From Agromyces sp. CF514 (GTDB lineage Bacteria > Actinomycetota > Actinomycetes > Actinomycetales > Microbacteriaceae), in assembly GCF_900113185.1 (NCBI RefSeq), contig NZ_FOZD01000001.1:2542001-2606000 (forward strand): DNA of 64,000 bases, given 5' to 3'. The notes beneath the pieces are model-generated. The model was given only the letters and a program-made list of their open reading frames with translations, had not been told where the DNA came from and made no database searches. Shown here piece after piece: positions 8,473 through 14,680 of the stretch (its first letter is position 1; each line of letters starts with the position of its first letter). The translations under genes and the position numbers were made by a program.

Positions 8473-10551
<2,079 letters not shown>

Positions 10552-10696
10552 GTCGCACAAGCCTACTGAGCGCCACCGACCCTCGCGTGCAGGCGCTACG
10601 CGGTGAGCGAAATGCCCGACGGAACGGAAGGATCACCGCCGAAGACGTGTTTACATTGATGAACGGATTTCGCGCAGTGAGCCAGGAGGAGGAGCC

Positions 10697-11014: not shown

Positions 11015-11800
11015 TCAGGCTTCGTTCGCCGACGAGGGCGCAACGACGGATGACGCCACGACGGATTCGGTGTCGACGCCCGCTGCCGCCAGATGCGCAC
11101 GCCGCGCGTCGTCTGCGTAGCCGTCGACGACGAGCGTCTGCTCTCCGGGCGAGTAGTCGAGCCCGGCGCGTTCGGCCATGGCCCGCAGCATGCGGTCGGC
11201 GAGCACCGGGTTCTTCGCGAGCACGGGTCCGTGCAGGTGCGTGCCGATGACCTCGCCCATGACGACGCCCTCCTGCCCGGAACCCTGCGCGTTGCCCTGA
11301 CCCGAACGAACCCTCCCGAGGGGCGACCCCTCGGCGCCGACGTAGGCGCGCGCGTGGTTCTCGAAGCCGACCAGCAGCTCACGGGATCCGCGCTCGGCCA
11401 CGACGAGATCGCCGGTAATGCGCCCTTCGCGATGCGGCACGGCGCGGCCCGGCAGGATGCCGAGCCCCTCGATGTTCGTGCCGTCGGGCAGTTCGATGCC
11501 CCACGAGAGCAGTTCCCACCCGGTTCCGACGGCGAGGATCGGCACACCCTCGGTGCCCCATCGGCGCAGCTCGTCGTGCAGTTCGAGCAGTCGGGTTCGC
11601 GCGGCTTCGAGCGCGGCATCCGTGCCCGAGCCGATGACGACCGCGTCGACGTGGTCGGGCAGGTCGTCGCGGGACTCGACCGCGACCACGCGCGCGTCGA
11701 GGCCCGCCCAGGTCGCGCGCTGCGCGAGCACCGCTGCGTTCTCGGCGTCGCCGTTGGTGTTCTGCAGCGACGGCAGCAGCGTCGCGATCGTGAGGGTCAT
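11015..11800 (-). CDS. GatD-like glutamine amidotransferase homologue lacking the catalytic cysteine
   Basis: In classical systems GatD hydrolyses glutamine and feeds ammonia to MurT, which amidates D-Glu of lipid II. The 261 residues align end to end with that family: TNGDAENAAVL, ENHARAYVGAEGSPLGRV and the histidine motif GTHLHGPVLAKNP (His188/190). The nucleophile elbow, normally LAxCGGxQ, reads LAVGTGWE at 89-96, with glycine at the cysteine position and Glu instead of Gln. The whole protein has no cysteine. Glutaminase chemistry is therefore not expected. It overlaps the murT-like gene by four bases, so the two subunits are still co-made. I infer a structural or repurposed subunit; see findings. 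Confidence 0.85.
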   Translation of the reverse strand: MTLTIATLLPSLQNTNGDAENAAVLAQRATWAGLDARVVAVESRDDLPDHVDAVVIGSGTDAALEAARTRLLELHDELRRWGTEGVPILAVGTGWELLSWGIELPDGTNIEGLGILPGRAVPHREGRITGDLVVAERGSRELLVGFENHARAYVGAEGSPLGRVRSGQGNAQGSGQEGVVMGEVIGTHLHGPVLAKNPVLADRMLRAMAERAGLDYSPGEQTLVVDGYADDARRAHLAAAGVDTESVVASSVVAPSSANEA

Positions 11801-13068
11801 TCCGCTCCAGTGAGTCCGAGGTGCGCACGCGTGCGCCGCATCGAGTCGGCCGAGAAGACGATCGTCTTCGTTCCGGATGCCGGGGCGGGAGCCGCGAGGA
11901 ACTCGTCGACCGCCCGGGCGAGGTCGGGTTCGACCCGGTCGATCCCGACGCCGTCGTAGGCGAGCATGAGCGCCGCCTCGGCGGCCTTGGACCCGCTGAC
12001 GATCGAGACCCGGCCGAGCGACGAGGCGTCGGCGGGCCAGAAGTACGAGGGGTCGCGCACGTCGGAGCCGATCGCGAAGAGGATGTCGGAGGTGCCGGGC
12101 TCGATGCTGTCGACGTTGAGCTGGTAGCTCGCCGTGTTCTGCACGAGCACGAAATCGACCTCCTGACCGCGCACCTGCACGCGCTCGCCGCGCCCGAAGA
12201 CCGCGGGGATCGCGCTGAGCGCCGCCGCCGCGACGTCGCGGTCGAACCCGGCGCCGAGCACCGACTTCGCCGTCGTGTAGGCCGCGGTCGCATCGACCCC
12301 GTAGTGGGTGCCGCGAGCCGGAAGCGTGATCGCCACGGCAGTGCCGTGATCGTCGATCACCGCGGACCGGCCGTCGACGGACTCGAGCCGGACGCCTTCG
12401 CCCTCGGCGAGCCGCGCCTCGGCCGTCTTCGCGTAGCCGAGGCCGCGGGGTGCAGCGGCGACGACCGCCTCGGAGGCGCCGAACCGCTCGACCGCGACAT
12501 CCGCCCCGACTCGTGCCGCGAGCTGCTGGAGGTAGGCGTCGTCGGCGTTCACGATGACCGACCCTTGCGCGCGTGCCGCGATCCGCGCGAGCATGCCGGC
12601 GACCATCTCGGAGTCGTGGAAGCGGTCGACCTGGTCGACCATGACGTTCATGAGCGTCACGGTGCGGGCGTCGACCCCCTGCATGACGAGCGCGCCGTGG
12701 CCCTCGTCCATCTCGAGCACGGCCATCTCGCCGGGTACGCGGCCCAGCCAGTCGGCGCGCTCGAGCAAGGCCGAGGTGAGGCCCTGGCTGATGTTGGCGG
12801 TCGAGGGGTTGGTGAACACGTCGACGCCATGGGCGCGGAGGATCGCGACCAGCATCTTCGTGGTCGTCGACTTGCCGCTCGATCCGGACACCACCACGAG
12901 CCCCTGCGGGAAGCCCGACAGGGTGCGCTTCAGGTAGCCCGGCGCGAGGCGGTTGACGACCAGCCCCGGAACGGCCGATCCGCCGCCCGGCTTGCGCAGC
13001 CGTGCGGCGAATCGGGTGAGTCTGCCGGCGAGGATCGCCGGCCCGTAACGAAGAGAACCAGCGGACAC
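11797..13068 (-). CDS. MurT-like Mur ligase homologue without the zinc ribbon
   Basis: Mur-ligase-fold ATPase of 423 residues (Mur ligase middle domain plus DUF1727 C-terminal domain). The P-loop is SGSSGKSTTTKM at 61-72. FGRGERVQVRG at 291-301 matches the MurT hinge. Differences from known MurT: no Cys4 zinc ribbon after the FG motif near 197 (the protein has no cysteine), the usual LTNLFRDQLDRYGE region reads LMNVMVDQVDRFHD, LxKNPAG reads LVQNTASY, and the NDxxADGxDxSWxWD region reads GSDVRDPSYFWPAD. GTG start lies 7 bases after the sigA stop. It is cotranscribed with sigA and the gatD-like gene. It probably still ligates something to a peptidoglycan precursor, but not necessarily ammonia. 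Confidence 0.85.
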   Translation of the reverse strand: MSAGSLRYGPAILAGRLTRFAARLRKPGGGSAVPGLVVNRLAPGYLKRTLSGFPQGLVVVSGSSGKSTTTKMLVAILRAHGVDVFTNPSTANISQGLTSALLERADWLGRVPGEMAVLEMDEGHGALVMQGVDARTVTLMNVMVDQVDRFHDSEMVAGMLARIAARAQGSVIVNADDAYLQQLAARVGADVAVERFGASEAVVAAAPRGLGYAKTAEARLAEGEGVRLESVDGRSAVIDDHGTAVAITLPARGTHYGVDATAAYTTAKSVLGAGFDRDVAAAALSAIPAVFGRGERVQVRGQEVDFVLVQNTASYQLNVDSIEPGTSDILFAIGSDVRDPSYFWPADASSLGRVSIVSGSKAAEAALMLAYDGVGIDRVEPDLARAVDEFLAAPAPASGTKTIVFSADSMRRTRAHLGLTGAE

Positions 13069-13075
13069 CGGCGGC

Positions 13076-14374
<1,299 letters not shown>

Positions 14375-14680
14375 TGGTTGAACCTCTCCTACATCGCACG
14401 GCGCATGCCCGGCAGGGGTCGCGGCTCGTGGTGGGTCCGATCGTTTTCGGACACTATGAGGACCCATGTCAAGTCCGCGACCTCGGCACGCGAACGTGCC
14501 CGCGGACCAGAACGGGTCCTTCTGCCATTATACAGCCGTCAACTGCGCCTCACGTCCACGCGGGCATCGCGTTTCTCCCGGATCGCGGCCCCGGGCACCC
14601 GCAGACTCCCTCATGACAACGCCGGCCGCGGCATCCGCATTCCCGAGGATGGCTCATGCAGGCGACGAGAACCGGGCGGA
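14375..14680 (-). promoter_or_regulatory. sigA upstream region with consensus -10
   Basis: This 306-base gap holds no gene. A perfect TATAAT on the minus strand (14532-14527) has TGGACG 20 bases upstream as a poor -35 and would give a ~145-base leader for sigA. A TTGACA sequence on the minus strand (14472-14467) lies closer to the gene but has no well-spaced -10. Confidence 0.5.

Follow-up and report, generated by a model that had tools for sequence, protein, structure and literature searches.

A cysteine-less MurT/GatD-like pair behind sigA as a candidate amino acid ligase for the group B peptidoglycan of Microbacteriaceae

The stretch of DNA analysed here (the window) comprises 64,000 nucleotides of Agromyces sp. 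CF514 (contig NZ_FOZD01000001.1, positions 2,542,001 to 2,606,000) and carries, directly behind sigA, two genes related to murT and gatD of the lipid II isoglutaminyl synthase. With moderate confidence, we propose that the pair encodes a Mur-type ligase, with GatD as its non-catalytic partner, that adds the bridge diamino acid to the α-carboxyl of D-Glu. In a group B wall this carboxyl carries the cross-bridge, and to our knowledge MurT is the only enzyme type known to activate it; the ligase predicted at this position next to sigA is thus well placed as a candidate for the missing enzyme of such walls. MurT would spend ATP in activating the α-carboxyl of D-Glu in the precursor, like an amidating MurT, and the incoming amine would be an amino acid, most likely the group B bridge diamino acid, instead of ammonia. 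GatD would no longer supply ammonia and would support the C-terminal domain of MurT structurally. In the Agromyces-like organism of the window, the added residue would probably be diaminobutyrate (DAB) rather than glycine. We infer the acceptor, the added amino acid and what GatD does; the exchange of ligases in the slot and the match between MurT clade and diamino acid are the stronger evidence, not the lost zinc ribbon or the group B label.

The gatD-like gene (11015..11800, minus strand) encodes a protein of 261 residues with no cysteine and a class I glutaminase fold (Pfam GATase_3, 70 bits), whose best matches in the PDB are to S. aureus GatD. The nucleophile elbow reads LAVGTGWE (residues 89–96; 11513..11536, minus strand), in which Gly92 replaces the cysteine and aligns with Cys94 of S. 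aureus GatD, and the histidine motif THLHGP (residues 187–192; 11225..11242, minus strand) is retained. In S. aureus, the C94G and C94S substitutions abolish lipid II amidation (PMC6113224; here and below, papers are cited for the excerpts consulted). The altered elbow is conserved across related loci and is thus beyond chance. The nucleophile is absent from all 119 distinct GatDs whose MurT starts at most 1.3 kb behind sigA, its position being taken by Gly (86), Ala (15), His (12), Ser (3), Thr (2) or Asn (1). Where at least 400 bp upstream are visible and hold no sigA, 32 of 40 GatDs keep the cysteine, as does one of the ten whose upstream region is not visible. The loss of the nucleophile is tied to the position beside sigA. 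The catalytic histidine is kept in 67 of the 119 sigA-linked GatDs, replaced in 51 and falls in a gap in one. A protein that is conserved as a whole (dN/dS 0.17–0.35) while its active site varies between lineages fits a structural partner, and we predict that this subunit is non-catalytic.

The murT-like gene (11797..13068, minus strand) encodes a predicted ATP-dependent Mur ligase of 423 residues, again with no cysteine (Mur_ligase_M, 43.7 bits; MurT_C at 19.7 bits, under its 25-bit cut-off), whose best PDB matches are the MurT structures 6fqb, 7q8e and 6gs2. With the residues that serve ATP, Mg and acceptor taken from PMC6085368 and PMC6113224, we find K66, T68, N92, D121, E122, R293, N311 and D339 invariant across 35 aligned MurTs (five canonical rows and none of the T4 type described below). 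In the P-loop SGSSGKST (residues 61–68; 12865..12888, minus strand), G62 and G65 are invariant in addition to K66 and T68. The equivalents of Asn92 and of Asp121 and Glu122 handle the acceptor carboxylate in MurT (PMC6085368, PMC6113224). Asn311 is kept within LVQNTASY (residues 308–315; 12124..12147, minus strand), which stands at the KNPAG position, and Asp339 of RDPSYFW (residues 338–344; 12037..12057, minus strand) corresponds to S. aureus MurT D349 of the shared triad. Given the lost GatD nucleophile and the retained MurT ligase residues, ammonia delivery looks gone and carboxyl activation looks intact.

The pair thus shares with the MurT/GatD synthases of S. aureus (6gs2) and S. pneumoniae (6fqb) its protein families, the gene overlap, the ATP and acceptor residues, the D349 equivalent and the HGP motif. 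It differs from them in the glycine at the GatD nucleophile position, in a shortened DNAAD stretch ahead of RDPSYFW, in the replacement of the gate arginine before DQ (RDQ), in an aspartate at the adenine site and in several changed pocket residues. It also lies far under the equivalog cut-offs of NCBIfam, with scores of 112.9 bits (cut-off 450), 100.2 bits (cut-off 400), and 72.5 and 70.3 bits (cut-off 800 for both). With the amino acid-adding Mur ligases of the MurE type, it shares the middle and C-terminal Mur domains and, as proposed here, a diamino acid as the amine, but it has the short N-terminus of a MurT and a GatD partner, a comparison that draws in part on PMC6113224.

Both genes look to be under purifying selection, with dN/dS of about 0.17–0.30 for murT and 0.17–0.35 for gatD between the window and seven loci of the Agromyces group. 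Their frames overlap by 4 bp, and murT lies 7 bp from sigA (13076..14467, minus strand), the upstream gene that defines the slot. The far border of the slot is a probable parE/gyrB-like gene at 8473..10560 (minus strand). Among named organisms, Agromyces terreus is the closest (MurT 85% and ParE 94% identical), and synteny with sigA holds in 77 of 91 loci of one comparison set. The genome search returned a single MurT and a single match to the window GatD, together with three weaker GATase_3 matches that were left aside; neither a second MurT nor a CofE-like protein was found in this genome. An earlier note, made from the sequence of the window, had described both proteins as free of cysteine, with the elbow, the THLHGP motif and the two MurT motifs given above, in open frames overlapping by 4 bp behind sigA. 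Coordinates and alignments bear this description out, and the second murT/gatD pair that the note had named as speaking against its reading was not seen, no second MurT having been found. In two other loci the frames are split, gatD in L018 (G280) and murT in L013 (G271), by sequencing error or in reality.

The earlier note also took the loss of the MurT Cys4 zinc ribbon as a mark of repurposing, which is not supported. Four neighbouring proteins contain 8 cysteines in 2290 residues, from which about 2.4 would be expected in the 684 residues of the pair, and the absence of cysteine is weak evidence on its own. The CxxC motif is missing from all 20 Cys-bearing pairs examined from other families of the order (the best 20 of 70 positive genomes). 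Within the family, the ribbon is absent from the Cys-bearing pairs L069, L072, L074, L078, L085 and L086 and present in L210–L215 and L258. Because Cys-bearing pairs both inside and outside the family do without it, ribbon loss is no sign of repurposing, and the ribbon does not define the isoglutaminyl synthase.

The slot behind sigA was examined through a scan for the SigA C-terminus of the family, which gave at least 118 named stretches. Among the 118 listed loci, the slot holds a MurT-like gene in 66 and a CofE-like gene in 49, never both, and is unreadable in three. The CofE-like gene starts between −19 and +30 bp from the sigA stop (for example in L130, L101 and L143), and in 60 of its 66 loci MurT begins no more than 0.1 kb from the end of sigA, against 0.5–1.0 kb behind it in the other six. 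No MurT above 54 bits was found in the whole genomes behind 48 of the 49 listed CofE-like loci; the remaining two of the 50 genomes searched (L108 and L116) do have one. On a weakly resolved SigA tree (104 readable rows), slot content requires 25 changes among five states, 12 of them between MurT and CofE-like. In the 299-genome sample described below, both kinds of genome occur in 15 genera, including that of the window (through the CofE-like genome G142), a count in which the place of the gene was checked where loci were read. Within Microbacterium, M. aurantiacum and M. aoyamense have MurT in the slot, and M. testaceum and M. oxydans the CofE-like gene. Among the matches listed for 30 genomes drawn from odd cases, the slot is filled by MurT in some and empty in many, with parE close behind sigA. 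Three records titled Stenotrophomonas, Planococcus and Acidobacteria (L093, L180 and L200) carry sigA loci of Microbacteriaceae type, probably through contamination or mislabelling.

Across a sample of 299 genomes of the family, with searches that scored first-look candidates up to a set limit in each genome, GatD was matched in 235 and MurT in 282 at an E-value of 0.001, the weak MurT matches being other Mur ligases. Of the 80 genomes with a weak or no match, re-tested with a profile of the 35 aligned MurTs, 26 have MurT (in G099 as a piece at a contig end) and 54 gave nothing above 57 bits. With two incomplete genomes judged by the first search only (G094 and G156), MurT is apparently missing from 56 of the 299 genomes, and 45 of these 56 have a CofE-like protein. 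Strong CofE-like matches (at least 268 bits) occur in 45 genomes of the sample, all 45 without MurT, and weak ones (118–128 bits) in three. A simple tracking of cysteine and ribbon loss with group B peptidoglycan, which the earlier note had put forward for examination, is not supported, because the pair is missing from these 56 genomes and 45 of them carry the CofE-like protein instead; the plain equation of the pair with group B is rejected.

The two occupants of the slot belong to different Pfam families, and both are of carboxylate–amine ligase families. CofE chemistry is an amide ligation to a carboxylate. The CofE-like slot protein scores 40.6 bits to PF01996, the F420-0:gamma-glutamyl ligase family, and 22.7 bits to the F420 equivalog TIGR01916 (cut-off 180.65). 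Matches to CofC, all weak (at most 55 bits), were found in 12 of 45 CofE-like genomes and six of ten MurT-type genomes, and none was found in the other 33 and four. With this low TIGR01916 score, and CofC no commoner alongside it, the CofE-like protein is probably not an F420 enzyme. In a search of the phylum, CofE-like proteins above 75 bits occur in 16 genomes from outside the family; among the 16 stretches read, GatD or MurT lies beside the gene in L310 only (L335 in the wider stretch).

A MurT tree (104 rows, quick method, SH-aLRT support only) separates the groups T1, which holds window-like proteins, T3a, T3b, T4 and canonical. On it, linkage to sigA and possession of the cysteine are each accounted for by two changes, when the 11 rows that belong to neither group are left out of the count. 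Within the order, 80 of 218 genomes gave a MurT, and 70 of these 80 are from other families; of the best 30 loci read, 20 are from outside the family, and these 20 pairs are canonical and Cys-bearing, with no adjoining sigA. T4 pairs lie behind sigA in L216, L217, L248–L254, L259, L261, L119 and L182. Where they were read, the GatD elbow is LFTHNA, the histidine is lost, and the KNPAG and DQxDR motifs of MurT are replaced.

MurT type follows the bridge diamino acid in the nine genera compared. Walls with DAB are described for Agromyces (A. aureus, B2gamma, D-Glu-L-Dab; PMC5217419), Cryobacterium and Glaciihabitans (PMC7033078), Subtercola (PMC5945732), Herbiconiux (PMC10011130) and Clavibacter (PMC9190974). 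The first three, Glaciihabitans through one metagenome-assembled genome (MAG), have MurT of type T1, and the other three have T3a. A D-Orn linkage is described for Agreia and D-Orn for Frondihabitans (PMC5945732), and D-Lys for Frigoribacterium (PMC7033078); all three are T3b. Agreia is placed inside Subtercola by 16S ribosomal RNA (PMC5945732), and the two genera have MurTs of separate clades, which match their respective diamino acids. The comparison leaves out Leifsonia, Rathayibacter, Curtobacterium, Plantibacter, Okibacterium, Mycetocola and Pseudoclavibacter, and also the glycine of Microbacterium bridges. Glycine, which the earlier note had offered as one possible residue added by the pair, is disfavoured by this sorting. 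A column search between the DAB and the Orn/Lys clades returned five scattered positions and no clear pocket. Further excerpts drawn on are from PMC4156110, PMC10757982 and PMC6113628.

The genera with the CofE-like protein (Microbacterium, Gulosibacter and Lacisediminihabitans, the last from PMC7033078) include walls with Orn, with Lys and with DAB, as expected if this enzyme adds a common first residue. That the residue is glycine is a guess. Excerpts give a glycine ratio of 3.5 for the wall of one Microbacterium, a strain whose slot was not seen (PMC10978784), and of 1.0 for Subtercola vilae (PMC5945732).

Several observations weigh against the proposed role of the pair or its alternation with the CofE-like protein. 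The adenine-site asparagine of S. aureus MurT (N267) corresponds to Asp259 in the window, and an N267Y mutant is inactive (PMC6113224). The nine genera form a small, phylogenetically linked sample with wall data at genus level and partly MAG labels; two MAGs labelled Glaciihabitans are T4 and one labelled Cryobacterium is T3b. Salinibacterium, left out of the nine, is mixed (four CofE-like; one each of T1, T3a and T3b), and Lys and Orn are given for the wall of the genus (PMC7033078). On the SigA tree, which does not recover the 16S placement of Agreia inside Subtercola, Agreia (T3b) stands beside Plantibacter (T1), and Subtercola beside a Salinibacterium. Of the 54 profile-tested genomes that lack MurT, 11 have no CofE-like protein either (G019, G022, G049, G051, G062, G119, G121, G146, G174, G223 and G265); if these are group B, a third solution must exist, and they may have another bridge enzyme or another wall type. 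In L255 (G053) and L256 (G123), of genus g54, a CofE-like gene, a zinc-ribbon MurT and a Cys-less GatD form one run, so one ligase does not always exclude the other. Genes of these three kinds also meet in L335 (2298–5525), from another family of the phylum, in the order transglycosylase gene, MurT, Cys-less GatD (elbow MLFTGNAPETL) and CofE-like. We are less sure of ligase activity in the T4 pairs, which have lost KNPAG and DQxDR. In Gulosibacter chungangensis (L140:3145-4458), an EctB-type diaminobutyrate–2-oxoglutarate transaminase (593.9 bits, cut-off 552.2) directly follows the CofE-like gene. Unless this transaminase serves ectoine synthesis, as it may, it argues against a CofE-like protein that adds glycine alone.

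Other functions can be read into the same residues. MurT could make D-isoglutamine from free ammonium, with GatD as a structural subunit only; the S. aureus MurT/GatD does use ammonia directly at pH 8.5, with GatD still needed (PMC6085368), and the MurT ligase residues are intact in the window. We nevertheless think this amidase unlikely, in that it leaves both the CofE-like alternative and the DAB and Orn/Lys clades unexplained. In addition, an amidated D-Glu carboxyl would block group B cross-linking. A ligase of the same kind might instead act on another carboxyl, in a stem residue apart from D-Glu or in a polymer that is not peptidoglycan. The shortened DNAAD stretch and the changed pocket residues would allow for a different substrate, but Asn92 and Asp121/Glu122, which serve the acceptor carboxylate, are kept, and neighbouring genes, which also favour the proposed role of the pair, point to peptidoglycan, so that we rate this reading as equally improbable. 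Those neighbours are a class A penicillin-binding protein directly after an extra murT–gatD copy away from sigA in G122 (L263:4885-9155) and, in nine CofE-like stretches of other actinobacteria, MurJ in two and DivIVA with an asparagine-synthase-like gene in one. In one further stretch of the nine, MurT and Cys-less GatD accompany a transglycosylase gene, and the remaining five have no clear wall link (18 neighbouring proteins scanned).

The runs CofE-like–MurT–GatD in G053 and G123, and MurT–GatD–CofE-like in L335, could also mean that the two ligases catalyse successive steps of one pathway, of which most lineages have replaced one. This is a rather remote prospect, since they never stand together in the 115 readable listed loci and MurT is found in none of the strong CofE-like genomes. 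Least probable is that an amidating pair has left a remnant here that is in decay or has at most a regulatory role. It would account for the lost nucleophile, for the histidine replaced in 51 of 119 GatDs and lying in a gap in one, and for the split frames in G280 and G271, but not for the low dN/dS, the open frames, the synteny with sigA and the invariant ligase residues. The amino acid ligase proposed at the outset keeps the earlier idea of a repurposed pair, carried by the lost GatD nucleophile, the intact MurT residues, the single MurT of the genome and the closeness to Agromyces with the B2gamma wall of A. aureus, and drops the zinc ribbon and the tracking with group B as its arguments.

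In the open-access literature searched, of which excerpts were seen, we found no link between MurT/GatD, or any bridge ligase, and group B walls. If the proposed function is true, the pair would be a candidate for the enzyme that begins the group B cross-bridge, and the DAB, Orn and Lys wall types would have a genetic basis. An amidotransferase would here have returned to amino acid ligation, and MurT/GatD and CofE-like proteins would be unrelated ligases that replace each other. More tentatively, and at somewhat less than even chances in our judgement, the sigA slot may act as the peptidoglycan chemotype switch of Microbacteriaceae: a DAB-adding T1 or T3a, an Orn/Lys-adding T3b, or a CofE-like ligase that perhaps adds glycine, would set the residue on the D-Glu α-carboxyl, and lineages that exchange the slot would thereby change their wall type, a character on which taxonomy has long relied.

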